DNA of 45,966 nt from a virus, in IMG/VR virus record IMGVR_UViG_3300032006_000016, positions 1-45,966 of that record. The stretch is one strand, 5' to 3'. A program made the position numbers and the translations under genes. The notes beneath the pieces were generated by a model, which was not told where the DNA came from, made no database searches, and saw only the letters and a program-made list of their open reading frames with translations. Positions 363 to 3,970 of the stretch are shown one piece after another. Within the stretch, counting starts at the first letter, position 1. Each line of letters starts with the position of its first letter.

Positions 363-683
363 TTAGCTGTTCAAAGCACCAGCGATTTTTTCCAAATCTC
401 CGAAGCCAGCCTTGCTCAAAGAAGGAAGTTCCATCTCCAGAGCTGACTCAATCTGAGCCACGAAGTCTGCCTTACGTACCTGAGGTGGACGCTTGGTAGG
501 CTTAGGCTGTGCAACGTAAACTTCCAAAGAAGAGAGCTTAGCGATGACAGAACGCTCAGTCTTGTTAAATTGCTCAGCAAGAGCAGCGACAGTAGCGCGA
601 GTAGGGTTAGCGGTATACTCAGAAACCATAGTGTCAATGACTTCTTGAGGGTAGTTACCAGATTTTACAGCAGTTGCATTCAT
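363..683 (-). CDS. Small regulator-like protein, family shared with 3255-3551
   Basis: The product has 106 residues. The N-terminal half has a helix-turn-helix-like pattern (NPTRATVAALAEQFNKTERS, then VIAKLSSLEVY), followed by a linker and a conserved C-terminal block (VRKADFVAQIESALEMELPS). The same two-part design occurs in the product of 3255-3551 (SVIAKL/SIIAKA, then KADFVAQIE/KADLVREIE). I recall similar small proteins in many marine phages, but their role is not known to me; DNA binding is an inference from the helix pattern. The start is supported by GGGAGA six bases before the ATG. A near-consensus leftward promoter (731-759) sits directly upstream, so this is the first gene of its transcript. 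Confidence 0.8.
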   Translation of the reverse strand: MNATAVKSGNYPQEVIDTMVSEYTANPTRATVAALAEQFNKTERSVIAKLSSLEVYVAQPKPTKRPPQVRKADFVAQIESALEMELPSLSKAGFGDLEKIAGALNS

Positions 684-730: not shown

Positions 731-759
731 ATTTTACAGGTTTTTAACCGAAATGTCAA
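731..759 (-). promoter_or_regulatory. Leftward sigma-70 promoter with upstream A-tract
   Basis: Read on the minus strand: TTGACA (759-754), a 17-base spacer, then TAAAAT (736-731). CAAAAAGTTC directly precedes the -35 box, as in the promoter at 1240-1268. The -35 box overlaps the TGA stop of the metalloprotease gene. It should drive 363-683 and the gene beyond. Confidence 0.8.
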
Positions 760-1214
760 GAACTTTTTGACATGTTAGTCCAAATATCTGCAAGTTTTTT
801 CTCCCAGTGAATAGCATCCTTTTCCCAAGGCGTATTCTCGTATGAGTGCCAGTCTTCAGCAGTATCAGTATCGTACTCGTCGCCTTTCCAGTAAGTAGTG
901 CCAGCTTCGTTATCAAAGCCGAAGTGTATCATCTGGTATACGTGACGTAATTCGTGCGCGATTGTAGCAATCAAAGAATCAGTCGTCCAATCACTATTGT
1001 GAGTCGCAGATAAGCGTACTTGATAGCGATGGTCGCCTAACTTAACAGCATCACCGAATACTTCTGGCATGTCCATTAGTTTTATAGTAAGTTTACCATA
1101 GATTTCCCAATTCATTTGGTATACAATAGTACACCACTCAACCATTTCTCTGACCACTGCCCTTCTTGACGGTGACCAACCACGAGTAGCTTTGACTTTG
1201 TATTTTATTCGCAT
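756..1214 (-). CDS. Zinc metalloprotease-like protein (HExxH)
   Basis: The product has 152 residues. Residues 87-91 are HELRH, the HExxH zinc-binding motif in a helix (IAHELRHVYQ). Glu131 in ENTPWEKDA is in a good place to be a third ligand. This matches small phage proteins of the SprT/zincin type; substrate unknown. I chose the ATG at 1214 because it has GGAG seven bases upstream and a consensus promoter just beyond (1240-1268). The frame stays open to 1667, but that extension crosses promoters and repeats, has no ribosome site, and is low-complexity. Alternative view: a structural zincin fold without activity. Confidence 0.78.
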   Translation of the reverse strand: MRIKYKVKATRGWSPSRRAVVREMVEWCTIVYQMNWEIYGKLTIKLMDMPEVFGDAVKLGDHRYQVRLSATHNSDWTTDSLIATIAHELRHVYQMIHFGFDNEAGTTYWKGDEYDTDTAEDWHSYENTPWEKDAIHWEKKLADIWTNMSKSS

Positions 1215-1239
1215 GGTATTCTCCTTAATTTGAAAAGAT

Positions 1240-1268
1240 ATTATACTTAAAAGTGAAGAGGAAGTCAA
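1240..1268 (-). promoter_or_regulatory. Leftward promoter of the metalloprotease-like gene
   Basis: Minus strand: TTGACT (1268-1263), 17-base spacer, consensus TATAAT (1245-1240), start of transcription predicted near 1233. The box is preceded by GCAAAAAGTTC, the A-tract arrangement seen at the other promoters of this class. The ATG is 19 bases further on, after a GGAG site. Confidence 0.85.
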
Positions 1269-1433
1269 GAACTTTTTGCCCCAAATGGTCGAAAAATTAC
1301 GCAAATGAATTCCGGGGGGCCGCGCGCGGGGTCGCAATGTCAAGGAATTTTTGCGGGTTTTGCCCAAATTTTCTCGAATTTTCGCACCCGTGCCGAGGAC
1401 TACGCAATTTTCCGAACTTTTTGGAGCATTGCC

Positions 1434-1473
1434 GCAAAAAAAGCTTGACAAAACCCGCGCGGGCGGGTATAAT
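1434..1473 (+). promoter_or_regulatory. Consensus rightward promoter P1
   Basis: GCAAAAAAAGC, then TTGACA (1445-1450), exactly 17 bases, then TATAAT (1468-1473). This is a perfect sigma-70 consensus, yet no rightward gene follows: the next 2.5 kb codes on the other strand. Transcription should start near 1480. Confidence 0.85.
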
Positions 1474-1492
1474 GGCGCAGGGACCACTTTTA

Positions 1493-1520
1493 ATCGTCGT
1501 CGTACTACTACTTTGGCGCA
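1493..1520 (+). repeat. TCG/ACT element, copy 1
   Basis: A 28-base unit reading ATCGTCGTCGTACTACTACT followed by TTGGCGCA. It lies about 20 bases after the -10 box of P1. It differs from copy 2 at one base (GCGCA/GTGCA). Confidence 0.8.
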
Positions 1521-1533
1521 CGGCGGGGTTAAA

Positions 1534-1561
1534 ATCGTCGTCGTACTACTACTTTGGTGCA
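1534..1561 (+). repeat. TCG/ACT element, copy 2
   Basis: Same 28-base unit as copy 1, with T for C near the 3' end, 13 bases after it. Both are in the stretch transcribed from P1. Confidence 0.8.
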
Positions 1562-1600
1562 GAAAGACTGATAAAATTGTAAATAATTTGCTCCACACCC

Positions 1601-1640
1601 GCAAAAAAGACTTGACAATCCTCGCTTTTGCACTTAAAAT
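1601..1640 (+). promoter_or_regulatory. Rightward promoter P2
   Basis: GCAAAAAAGAC, then TTGACA (1612-1617), 17 bases, TAAAAT (1635-1640), then GGCGC as in P1. P1 and P2 look like duplicated units: A-tract, promoter, GGCGC, then a TCG/ACT element. Confidence 0.8.
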
Positions 1641-1665
1641 GGCGCGCGGTACACCAAATGCGGTC

Positions 1666-1687
1666 ATCGTCGTACTACTACTGGCGC
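1666..1687 (+). repeat. TCG/ACT element, copy 3 (shorter)
   Basis: ATCGTCGTACTACTACT followed by GGCGC. One CGT and the TTT of copies 1-2 are missing. It lies about 25 bases after the -10 box of P2 and runs into a GC-rich inverted repeat (GGCGC ... GCGCC, 1682-1695). Confidence 0.75.
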
Positions 1688-1799
1688 GCCGGCGCCGAAT
1701 TTATCATCCGACGCCTCGTGTCCTTGCGCTCTCTCGACCTATGAGCTTCTATGTGCCGTTACCTTAGTCCATGATTGCGATCTCCTATTCAATGTGACC

Positions 1800-1827
1800 A
1801 TTATACCATAGTGTGCAAGTTTGTCAA
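1800..1827 (-). promoter_or_regulatory. Leftward promoter P3 facing P1 and P2
   Basis: Minus strand: TTGACA (1827-1822), 16-base spacer, TATAAT (1805-1800), start predicted near 1793. It has no A-tract; a 14-bp palindrome (1829-1842) abuts the -35 box instead. Downstream, AGGAG (1782-1778) is followed seven bases later by ATG GAC TAA, a two-codon frame at 1770-1762, and then no gene until 1214. Confidence 0.8.
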
Positions 1828-1828
1828 G

Positions 1829-1842
1829 TGTGAATATTCACA
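1829..1842. promoter_or_regulatory. Palindromic operator site A
   Basis: TGTGAATATTCACA is a perfect 14-bp palindrome, one base upstream of the P3 -35 box and centred near -42 from the predicted start. Half-sites recur in sites B (3638-3651) and C (3787-3800). The binding protein is unknown. Confidence 0.65.
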
Positions 1843-1878
1843 TGTAACACATTCTTTTCCCAGGTATCCGAGTCTATG

Positions 1879-1913
1879 GCGCCGCTAAGTCCTTGATTTA
1901 TAAGGACTTTTTC
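1879..1913 (+). terminator. Terminator hairpin for rightward hub transcripts
   Basis: AAGTCCTT (1887-1894), loop GATTTAT, AAGGACTT (1902-1909), then TTTC: an 8-bp stem with a T-run on the rightward strand. An outer GGCGC (1879) / GCGCC (to 1918) pair can lengthen it. It lies just past the end of the leftward gene at 1925, but on that strand no T-run follows, so it best serves rightward RNA. Confidence 0.6.
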
Positions 1914-1924
1914 AGCGCCTCCTT

Positions 1925-2044
1925 TTAGTAGAGTTTTACGATCAGAAAAATCTGTCCGACTAGCATTAAAATTGGGCAAACCGTGCGGATTATTTCCATG
2001 TTGTAGCGGAGTTTTATCAACTCCGCTTCTTGTTGCTCTGTCAT
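1925..2044 (-). CDS. Small one-pass membrane protein
   Basis: The product has 39 residues: a charged N-terminus (MTEQQEAELIKLR) followed by one hydrophobic helix (about residues 20-38, containing ILMLVGQIFLIV). The ATG at 2044 has GAGAGG six bases upstream and overlaps the stop of the previous gene as ATGA, which suggests coupled translation. A longer frame starting at 2113 has no good ribosome site. It is last in the leftward operon. The size and layout would fit a small holin-like or membrane-modifying protein, but nothing proves it. Confidence 0.6.
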   Translation of the reverse strand: MTEQQEAELIKLRYNMEIIRTVCPILMLVGQIFLIVKLY

Positions 2045-2601
2045 GCGTAACCTCTCTCTGTTGGATTGTCCTGTGGCTCTGGGCAACCATAAATTCCGTT
2101 TGCCCTTTTCCAATTTACCGTCTCAAGTCCAATATTTTTGCAAACTTCACGCTGTGCGCTTGCGAATTTTGCTTTAGCCATTTTCTCTGGCATGTTGAAA
2201 AATTCGCTATGGCCGCCCGCAGGTTTTGGAGTAACTTTCAAATCTCGGAATAGTCCGGCAAGCCGAAAATCTCGATTTGATTTGTGAAAGTATTGCTCAC
2301 TCGCTAGGGTTTCGTCATACGTTCCGAAAGTGCAAGCGATCAATTCGCCCTCTAATATGCCACGCTCGATATTAAAAGAAACTTCGATTTCTTTTAATGT
2401 CTCGATGATGCGAGATTGAACGCCATCCTTATCACCAGATCGAACCAGTTTTGCAAATCCGTCTTTGATTACGGTCATGTTGCGAAATGCCGGAATGACC
2501 GCACCCAGATTATAGCAACGCCATAAATAGTTCGCTCCGGTGTCTGACCATGGATCACCAATTCTGGTGGCGGGTGTTGAAAGTGATGTTAGTCTGCTCA
2601 T
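2041..2601 (-). CDS. Hypothetical protein of the leftward operon
   Basis: The product has 186 residues. I do not recognise it. It appears soluble and mixed alpha/beta: no signal peptide, no membrane helix. Visible stretches are SDTGANYLWRCYNLG near the N-terminus, an acidic middle (KEIEVSFNIERGILEGELIA), and a lysine-rich segment (MPEKMAKAKFASAQREV) near the end. The start at 2601 has GAGAGG eight bases upstream and overlaps the stop of the HAD gene by ATGA; its own stop overlaps the next start the same way. The chain of four-base overlaps indicates one polycistronic, translationally coupled message. Confidence 0.75.
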   Translation of the reverse strand: MSRLTSLSTPATRIGDPWSDTGANYLWRCYNLGAVIPAFRNMTVIKDGFAKLVRSGDKDGVQSRIIETLKEIEVSFNIERGILEGELIACTFGTYDETLASEQYFHKSNRDFRLAGLFRDLKVTPKPAGGHSEFFNMPEKMAKAKFASAQREVCKNIGLETVNWKRANGIYGCPEPQDNPTERGYA

Positions 2602-3071
2602 GCTGTTAGCCTCTCATTTGCTAGTGTTGCGTTAATTGTCTTGATTCCCATTGATTCCATGATATCCAATACCGCTAGATTATCGTCAAAGAAAACCGCG
2701 TTTTTTCTCATCCACGCCATAGAGCGTTGAAGTTTTTTCGCCAGTTTTAAAATCGCCCTTCTCTTGAGTAGATCATCGGGAGTGTGATTGCCCTCTGCCC
2801 TAGAGTAAAGAAAGTCAAATTTTAAATCATTGCGTTTCAGAAATGCAAGGTCAGCGTCTTGGATAACTCTCGCAGTAATTACCGCGACAGTATCCTTTAC
2901 CGAGCGCACCGAGCGCATTTTTTCAGCCAGTGGTAGAAGTGAATCCGCAAGGATTTTATCAACCGTGTTATTCTCTACCCAGTGCGCCAAGTCTAGCGAC
3001 CCATCGGGTAGCGTGTTCTGGCGGTGGCTAGAGTCAATCACCGTTCCGTCAAGATCAAATATATAAAGCAT
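2598..3071 (-). CDS. HAD-family phosphatase (polynucleotide 3'-phosphatase-like)
   Basis: The product has 157 residues with the HAD motifs in order: DLDGT at residues 6-10 (Asp6 nucleophile, Asp8 acid/base), ITAR at 65-68 (motif II), a Lys-rich stretch near 103-113 (motif III), and FFDDN at 127-131 (motif IV metal ligands). Length, the IDSSHR after motif I, and the small cap recall phage HAD enzymes related to the phosphatase domain of T4 polynucleotide kinase. There is no kinase domain. A role in DNA/RNA end repair or nucleotide dephosphorylation is inferred. The start overlaps the end of the upstream membrane protein gene by 17 bases. Confidence 0.85.
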   Translation of the reverse strand: MLYIFDLDGTVIDSSHRQNTLPDGSLDLAHWVENNTVDKILADSLLPLAEKMRSVRSVKDTVAVITARVIQDADLAFLKRNDLKFDFLYSRAEGNHTPDDLLKRRAILKLAKKLQRSMAWMRKNAVFFDDNLAVLDIMESMGIKTINATLANERLTA

Positions 3072-3258
3072 AAGCGTAGCCTATTGATGCGGCAAGATTC
3101 AGAAATACCAAGTTATAGAGCCGCTTATCTATCGCTTGGATCGTTAGCAATGCGAGGCCAATTATAGAAATAATTTTTCCGGCATCAGTGTCAATGAAAG
3201 GGGGAGCGATCACCAAAGCGACCGCACCCAACCAACCAAAGGAGCGAATGAGCATCAA
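3055..3258 (-). CDS. Small hydrophobic membrane protein
   Basis: The product has 67 residues, nearly all hydrophobic, with about three membrane segments (around residues 5-20, 28-43 and 48-66) and the short polar links DTDAGK and DKRLYN. I recall small membrane proteins of this style in other marine phages, without known function. The start overlaps the stop of the regulator-like gene as ATGA, and its end overlaps the HAD start, so it is expressed with them. A second ATG follows immediately (MM), so the exact first residue is uncertain. Confidence 0.7.
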   Translation of the reverse strand: MMLIRSFGWLGAVALVIAPPFIDTDAGKIISIIGLALLTIQAIDKRLYNLVFLNLAASIGYAYALYI

Positions 3259-3551
3259 CCGATGCTCATTAAGAGGGCTTGCAAGGAGCGCATAGACGCA
3301 CCCTGTAAACCGTCAAGGCTTTCGCCTTGGAGTGAACGCTCGATTTCTCGAACGAGATCAGCCTTTGTAGGCCGATCAGAGGAAGAAGAAGAAACAGCCT
3401 TCTTCTCGTAAGTTAAGCCGAGGCTTAATGCCTTGGCTATGATGGAGCGATGGCTATAGCCAAACTCCGCAGAGAAAGATTTCGCTTTCTCAAGATTGAG
3501 AGGTTGAGCCGCGCTCATCTTCTCAATCATAGTTGGTGTGTATTTAGACAT
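3255..3551 (-). CDS. Small regulator-like protein, relative of 363-683
   Basis: The product has 98 residues and the same plan as the 106-residue protein at 363-683: an N-terminal helical region ending in YSHRSIIAKALSLG, a serine-rich linker, and a conserved tail (RPTKADLVREIERSLQGESL). The ATG at 3551 was chosen because GGAGA lies five bases upstream; an upstream in-frame TTG would add four residues. It is the first gene of the leftward operon 1925-3551, behind a block with two leftward promoters and two palindromic sites. A DNA-binding role, perhaps in its own control, is inferred from the helix pattern and position. Confidence 0.78.
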   Translation of the reverse strand: MSKYTPTMIEKMSAAQPLNLEKAKSFSAEFGYSHRSIIAKALSLGLTYEKKAVSSSSSDRPTKADLVREIERSLQGESLDGLQGASMRSLQALLMSIG

Positions 3552-3637: not shown

Positions 3638-3651
3638 TGTGAATATTACCA
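3638..3651. promoter_or_regulatory. Hybrid operator site B
   Basis: TGTGAATATTACCA joins the left half of site A to the right half of site C. It is centred near -53 of the proximal promoter. Confidence 0.6.
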
Positions 3652-3737: not shown

Positions 3738-3766
3738 ATTATATCACCGAGCGCGCGCCTTGTCAA
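3738..3766 (-). promoter_or_regulatory. Leftward promoter, distal, full consensus
   Basis: Minus strand: TTGACA (3766-3761), 17 bases, TATAAT (3743-3738), start predicted near 3731. No A-tract; site C lies 20 bases upstream. An ATG (3730) falls at about +2, but its 67-codon frame runs through the operator sites and looks non-coding, so the likely target is the gene at 3551 with a 180-base leader. Confidence 0.8.
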
Positions 3767-3786: not shown

Positions 3787-3800
3787 TGGTAATATTACCA
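3787..3800. promoter_or_regulatory. Palindromic operator site C
   Basis: TGGTAATATTACCA, a perfect 14-bp palindrome centred near -62 of the distal leftward promoter. It shares the AATATT core and one half-site with site B. Confidence 0.6.
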
Positions 3801-3970
3801 TCGCACCCTAAAAAAGCGTCACAAAATAAAAGAAAAAATCCTTATAAATCAACAGCTTAGCGCGCGGTGTCCAGGACTGTATATGGGGGGGCGGTAATGA
3901 GACTCATTCTCATCTCGCGCGCGCCGGCACCCTTTCACGTACTACTTTGGGTTTTTTCAAAACACCTTTA
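3801..3970. other. Divergent spacer before the late genes
   Basis: No gene. It contains the 14-mer TCCTTATAAATCAA (3839-3852), exactly complementary to the loop side of the 1879-1913 hairpin, a run of seven G (3884-3890 region), and a fourth partial TCG/ACT element (3938-3950). Confidence 0.5.
3938..3950 (+). repeat. TCG/ACT element, partial copy 4
   Basis: CGTACTACTTTGG matches the 3' part of copies 1-2 with one ACT fewer. It lies 30 bases before the first late promoter; copies 1-3 lie after promoters. Confidence 0.45.

Follow-up and report, generated by a model that had tools for sequence, protein, structure and literature searches.

In phage T5 the genes follow from the genome end in the order pre-early genes, injection stop signal (iss), end of the terminal repeat and early genes, and the pre-early protein A1 is required in the second step of DNA transfer. 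The iss (AY543070, 9140-10149) is thought to block this second-step transfer through its repeats, palindromes and sites for a host protein, DnaA (PMC13250531). In bacteria, the palindrome TGTTCCACGTGGAACA is the parS2/parS3 site of Pseudomonas aeruginosa, and parS sites are located near oriC (PMC4368675). ParB represses promoters close to parS (PMC5521831), and the element SGI1 hijacks the parABS system of IncC plasmids (PMC10954446).

The block described here is best explained as a non-coding region with a control function, conserved across an uncultured T5-like clade. Like the T5 iss, it is non-coding, rich in repeats and palindromes, and situated between the early genes and those that would be first to enter the cell; both regions also carry sites for proteins of the host chromosome, DnaA boxes in the T5 iss and parS in relatives of the block. 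On the other hand, the sequences are quite different, with CTTGACA at the repeat boundary as the sole common item, the block is about 0.5 kb long against 1 kb for the iss, and the early genes of this clade run in the direction opposite to those of T5. Tandem promoters, TCG/ACT operators and (in relatives) parS are features by which the block differs from the iss.

The intergenic block and its promoters

The stretch of DNA analysed, called the window below, is a virus record of 45,966 bases and represents a genome fragment. Its TerL was 49% identical over 97% to that of Vibrio T5-like phages, and TerL, portal, fused head protease/major head protein and tail genes stood in the T5 order; by these genes the phage is T5-like (Demerecviridae-like), uncultured and marine. 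The features of the region were as follows.

363..683, minus strand: p106, a small DNA-binding-type protein with N-terminal HTH-like helices (phrog_1725 'DNA binding protein', E=1.7e-4)
756..1214, minus: first leftward gene past the block, an open reading frame (phrog_16532, E=1e-13, unknown function)
1240..1268, minus: predicted leftward promoter TTGACT-17-TATAAT, 11/12, kept in relatives, leading away from the block
1307..1332, no strand: GC element GAATTCCGGGGGGCCGCGCGCGGGGT, conserved, where the terminal repeat may have its inner boundary
1338..1344, minus: CTTGACA, -35-like with an A-tract upstream and no -10, the setting of the T5-like terminal-repeat inner boundary
1436..1473, plus: predicted rightward promoter 1, A-tract and CTTGACA-17-TATAAT (promoter 1445-1473), 12/12, 17-nt spacer, conserved
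1474..1478, plus: GGCGC discriminator of promoter 1, directly after the -10
1494..1512, plus: bipartite element TCGTCG-N3-TACTACT(ACT), copy 1, from repeat and motif search
1535..1553, plus: bipartite element, copy 2, without a promoter of its own
1612..1640, plus: predicted rightward promoter 2, CTTGACA-17-TAAAAT, 11/12, conserved, with GGCGC at 1641-1645
1667..1682, plus: bipartite element, copy 3, from motif search and relatives
1683..1696, no strand: palindrome GGCGC-N4-GCGCC, a stem-loop without a T-tract or a protein site
1703..1922, no strand: segment unlike the relatives, missing the parS-like site and leftward gene of locus L003
1800..1827, minus: predicted facing leftward promoter, 12/12, 16-nt spacer, without a gene in the window
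1925..3551, minus: leftward pre-early-like operon, faced by the rightward promoters
3255-3551, 3055-3258, 2598-3071, 2041-2601 and 1925-2044, all minus: genes of that operon, the first encoding p98 (a paralogue of p106) and the third a HAD/PNKP-type phosphatase
3738..3766, minus: predicted leftward promoter of the operon, 12/12, extended -10
3887..3950, plus: T5-like genome-end element GGGGGCGGTAATGAGAC...CACCCTTTCACGTACTACTTTGG, common to T5 and Vibrio T5-like phages

The first-pass annotation had placed four promoters here, and all four were recovered at those positions with 11-12 of 12 consensus positions. Such sites (>=11/12) numbered four in window 1200-1900, whereas 300 dinucleotide shuffles averaged 0.017 of them and never had more than 1. 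The block was then found in 46 sequences (the window plus IMG/VR loci), which formed 33 clusters at 90% identity; an exact 20-mer retrieved 19 viral contigs, a relaxed pattern 39 and the spacer form 9. Alignment among relatives, which had been proposed as a check, revealed a fixed order in all 33 clusters: leftward promoter, GC element (GAATTCCGGGGGGCCGC), TGTCAAG, rightward promoters each with GGCGC, TCGTCG-N3-TACTACT, and GGCGC-N4-GCGCC. Rightward promoters numbered two to four per block, usually two or three, and the distance from the GC element to TGTCAAG was almost always exactly 31 nt. Promoter-GGCGC units of the fetched loci lay inside the block in 67 of 71 cases, all in the same direction, and 50 of the 52 GGCGC palindromes were within it as well.

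It had also been claimed that no gene lies between the promoters. Open frames are present in the block, yet indels between the window and its relatives were mostly not multiples of three (2/3 in L004, 5/6 in L002, 20/21 in L006 and 13/14 in L009), hence no reading frame is conserved and the claim holds.

We take the block promoters to resemble rrn P1-type sigma-70 promoters and the early promoters of T5 and T7 in their upstream A-tract, consensus hexamers, GC-rich discriminator and tandem arrangement. They differ in having a putative operator in the spacer or downstream, and in being aimed at an opposed operon without a gene of their own.

The contig of locus L009 (G001; 82,805 bases) has identical ends of 4,911 bases and is a complete genome of the clade, with a unit of 77,894 bases given by that overlap. 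Its translated genes, by eye, included T5-type PolA, primase, helicase, SbcCD-like proteins, a split NAD ligase and NrdAB. Possible metabolic genes were seen at 48887-49625 and 65873-66475, by eye for Fe-S cluster assembly (HesB/IscU-like) and polyphosphate kinase 2.

The remaining element of the early description was a switch, in which collision would let the leftward promoter at 1827 and the rightward ones silence each other. Both sides do have consensus promoters that are oriented face-to-face in the window, but the facing promoter occurred in only ~4 of 46 blocks, outside the conserved part and lacking in most relatives. The close relative L003 equals the window up to the hairpin and then continues with TGTTCCACGTGAAACC and a 170-aa leftward gene behind the same leftward promoter; there the facing-type promoter precedes the gene, and a parS-like site lies past it. 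The window retains this promoter and has lost both the gene and the site, so its face-to-face layout is probably a deletion product. Neither was a lysogeny or early switch apparent: the facing pair is unconserved, reading the translations of the G001 early region by eye revealed no integrase or repressor, and no lysogeny gene was seen among the predicted proteins of that genome. Thus a regulatory hub of duplicated units is borne out by the 33 clusters and the 67/71 units, whereas a switch between facing promoters is highly improbable. A role in opposing transcription, directed at the pre-early-like operon that runs leftward from 3551 to 1925, is possible and forms part of the barrier proposed below. 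Palindromic or half-palindromic sequences adjoin leftward promoters at window 1829-1842, 3640-3651 and 3788-3799 (TGTGAATATTCACA, GTGAATATTACC and GGTAATATTACC), and these are likely operators of another regulator.

The TCG/ACT element and its candidate binding proteins

The duplicated promoter-operator units noted initially were real, and the repeat proved to be a three-copy family at 1473, 1514 and 1640. The window thus holds three TCG/ACT copies, two of which have their own promoter. With one mismatch or fewer allowed, the window had 11 occurrences of TCGTACTACT where 2.8 would be expected, and the three perfect copies were all inside the block. In 11 of 11 large contigs the motif was limited to the block, bar two one-mismatch matches, and inside the block it always lay on one strand. 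Its three central bases varied across loci while both halves were kept.

The position of the motif relative to the promoters took two forms. At 32 sites it lay downstream, starting 20-67 nt (mostly 20-27) after the -10; at 12 sites it made up the complete 17-18-nt spacer, in the form TTGACA-TCGTCG-N3-TACTACTG-TATAAT. Since spacer copies are not transcribed by their own promoter, the TCG/ACT element is most likely a DNA operator rather than an RNA element, and for the same reason the antisense-RNA reading of the first-pass annotation is weakened. This placement bears also on the view that the units are small-RNA genes, whose short transcripts would end at the GGCGC stem-loop and act in trans or antisense to the leftward operon. 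Many loci do present a promoter, about 60 nt and a GC-rich stem-loop, with no conserved coding frame. Against this, the stem-loop is without a consistent T-tract, the motif also sits untranscribed within promoter spacers, Rfam gave nothing above the gathering score, and the stem bases are nearly invariant, so that the stem gains no covariation support. We regard small-RNA genes as very unlikely.

Two further candidates were rejected. A coding leader peptide, with the TCG/ACT repeat read as VVVLLL/SSSYYY, was discarded as neither frames nor start codons were kept and indels break the frames; for a known RNA family or RNA element, Rfam returned sub-threshold chance matches only. Searches beyond the clade yielded no copy of the motif in bacterial genomes (GTDB scan) or in cultured phages (block query).

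As for the protein that would bind this operator, p106 or p98 is the candidate that the sequence data suggest: nearly every locus has homologues of both flanking the block, one per side, with p106 on the early side. An AF2 model of p106 consisted of helices (mean pLDDT 81, pTM 0.48), and neither the fold search against solved structures nor Pfam gave a significant match. The adjacent gene 756..1214, served by the predicted promoter 1268-1240, encodes a product with an HExxH-type motif, HELRH, seen by eye.

Map position at the genome end

The location of the block was compared with the genome ends of T5-like phages. Window 3887-3950 matched the left genome end of T5 (GGGGGTGGCGGTTAGCAGAC...GGACA|CACCTTCATGTG) and also the stretch of Vibrio T5-like phages between the dmp/other first-entering genes and the terminase genes; its 3887-3903 portion is common to T5, PG07, 234P1 and Achelous, and the element is also conserved in marine T5-like phages. 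Contig ends were dropped as evidence for the genome end, being uninformative because repeats break assemblies. Fur-box-like ATGAGA..TCTCAT repeats were seen next to the genome-end element (window 3896-3912; L014 about 1290-1310), and repeats like these fill the T5 iss. The genome-end element also contains CGTACTACTTTGG, which recurs in block copy 1.

Leftward from the genome-end element come small leftward genes, the block and the early genes. The block thus lies 2.1-2.6 kb inside the element, between pre-early-like genes (called so because of their map position) and early genes, and on this gene order its place on the map is that of the T5 iss. In relatives, the GC element was 2.3-4.2 kb from the genome-end element; this would be the length of the terminal repeat, the repeat itself being deduced from sequence, and the GC element is a candidate for its inner boundary. 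A CTTGACA that lacks a -10 is present at the inner ends of T5-like repeats, on the same strand as in the block, and homology between the two is suggestive only.

These likenesses would also fit a packaging or terminus function, in which the block is the second site that terminase recognises and cuts, where the repeat has its inner boundary: the GC element would be the cut, TGTCAAG, TCG/ACT and GGCGC would be terminase or nickase sites, and the promoter look would be partly incidental. The same-strand CTTGACA at repeat inner ends, the shared CGTACTACTTTGG and the near-fixed 31 nt between GC element and TGTCAAG all favor such a site, and localised nicks at TACT-type sites have a precedent in phage tf (PMC3517423). 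The nick sites of phiKMV-like phages and tf (CGACxxxxxCCTA/CTCCGG; TACT/RTGMC) loosely resemble TCGTCG-N3-TACTACT(GG). However, those known sites are scattered genome-wide, whereas the TCG/ACT motif is confined to one block; the T5 nick site GCGCGGTG was not enriched in the window. Cutting does not need tandem -35/-10 pairs at 17-18-nt spacing with GGCGC discriminators either. With a marine-boundary PWM, the top-ranked site was of the boundary type in 234P1, Eos and Klebsiella phages, whereas the real boundary of T5 or phiR2-01 did not stand out. A packaging site is accordingly judged unlikely.

A replication origin, primed by transcription from the tandem promoters and with parS adjoining as on bacterial chromosomes, was weighed as well. 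In the 77.9-kb G001 the GC skew reaches its minimum at the block, and the closeness of bacterial parS to oriC (PMC4368675) fits such an arrangement. Yet the skew tracks gene direction and in G001 stays level between 69.75 and 72.25 kb, its minimum was 2.6 kb off the block in a second genome (G002) and 3 kb off in the window, an AT-rich unwinding region was not noted, and DnaA boxes were present in only 6/35 blocks (7 boxes in total, with 3.2 expected by chance), so that the block does not share this trait of the T5 iss. Strong promoters followed by GC-rich stretches presumably resemble ColE1/T4-type priming, which we counted for an origin. On balance we hold an origin to be quite unlikely. DnaA, IHF and Fur sites showed no consistent occurrence in the block.

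Candidate parS sites and a proposed barrier

Beyond the palindrome, 26 of 35 non-redundant blocks carried the parS-type TGTTCCACGTGGAACA or a variant with no more than three changes. Of 34 contigs, 24 had the exact TGTTYCACGTGRAAC as a single copy in the block, while a reversed control pattern gave 0; exact or near-exact copies of the palindrome TGTTNCACGTGNAACA were non-random in the relatives. Carriers included L007, L010, L012, L017-L019, L021, L025 and L027, with the site 20-260 nt past the last palindrome. No parS was found in the window or in six cultured T5-like phages. Across IMG/VR the exact parS occurred in at least 120 contigs, and the matches listed included one further block-like locus and were otherwise a mixed set. 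One contig (L174) had five exact sites in 11.5 kb unrelated to the block, where an own partition system is possible.

The 16-bp palindrome of many relatives is identical to P. aeruginosa parS2/parS3, and the variants are within the natural parS range. Compared with chromosomal parS, the phage site is single per contig, without a detected ParB and absent from the window. A ParB_N domain was found in none of the 35 records, mostly fragments, and for this reason host ParB is the likely ligand of the candidate parS. SGI1 offers a parallel, as a mobile element that exploits the ParB of another replicon through its own parS-like sites (PMC10954446), although SGI1/IncC is an integrative element with a plasmid and the clade described here is a phage. 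It can further be imagined that host ParB clamps on parS to stop, anchor or tether the incoming genome, and that the window lineage, having lost the site, depends solely on its promoters; we consider this doubtful.

Taken with the arrangement described above, we tentatively propose, at somewhat less than an even chance, that the block acts as a regulated barrier separating the pre-early genes from the early ones, to which host ParB would be recruited in most relatives. The small leftward genes by the genome end would enter the cell first, with the block at the inner edge of the presumed repeat. Two to four strong predicted sigma-70 promoters would fire at this first-entering operon, each bearing the putative bipartite operator TCGTCG-N3-TACTACT in its spacer or downstream of its -10, and a phage regulator, most likely p106 or p98, would set them. 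Outward transcription and DNA-bound host proteins (ParB at parS, in most relatives) would together form the barrier, which would separate pre-early from early transcription and possibly pause DNA entry.

What argues for this barrier is the observed anatomy and its conservation: the fixed order, the confined motif with its one-strand orientation and its two placements, promoters in excess of shuffles, the shared genome end and the T5-like gene order. The presence of parS in 26/35 blocks without a ParB gene, the flanking p106/p98 and the TerL similarity support it further, as does the stress laid on host-protein sites, repeats and palindromes in a review of the iss (PMC13250531). Counted against it were the window without parS, the different sequence of the T5 iss, the p106 fold search without a significant match, a terminal repeat that we infer, and the A1 search, in which the Achelous protein as query gave 0/35 records (one complete genome among them) without a positive control. 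The packaging-boundary and origin readings may be partly true alongside the barrier. Our verdict is to read the block as a terminal control region of the T5 type, one in which most relatives unexpectedly have a host centromere site.

The pausing of T5-type DNA entry at the iss is an old open question, and the block provides a compact comparative counterpart of the iss in which operator, tandem promoters, GC boundary and parS are each testable singly. TCGTCG-N3-TACTACT also serves as a sequence signature for recognising the clade. If many lytic phages with no detected ParB retain one chromosomal parS at a constant position, this would be a new use of host machinery; if the proposal is true, these phages would employ the bacterial chromosome-segregation machinery during infection.
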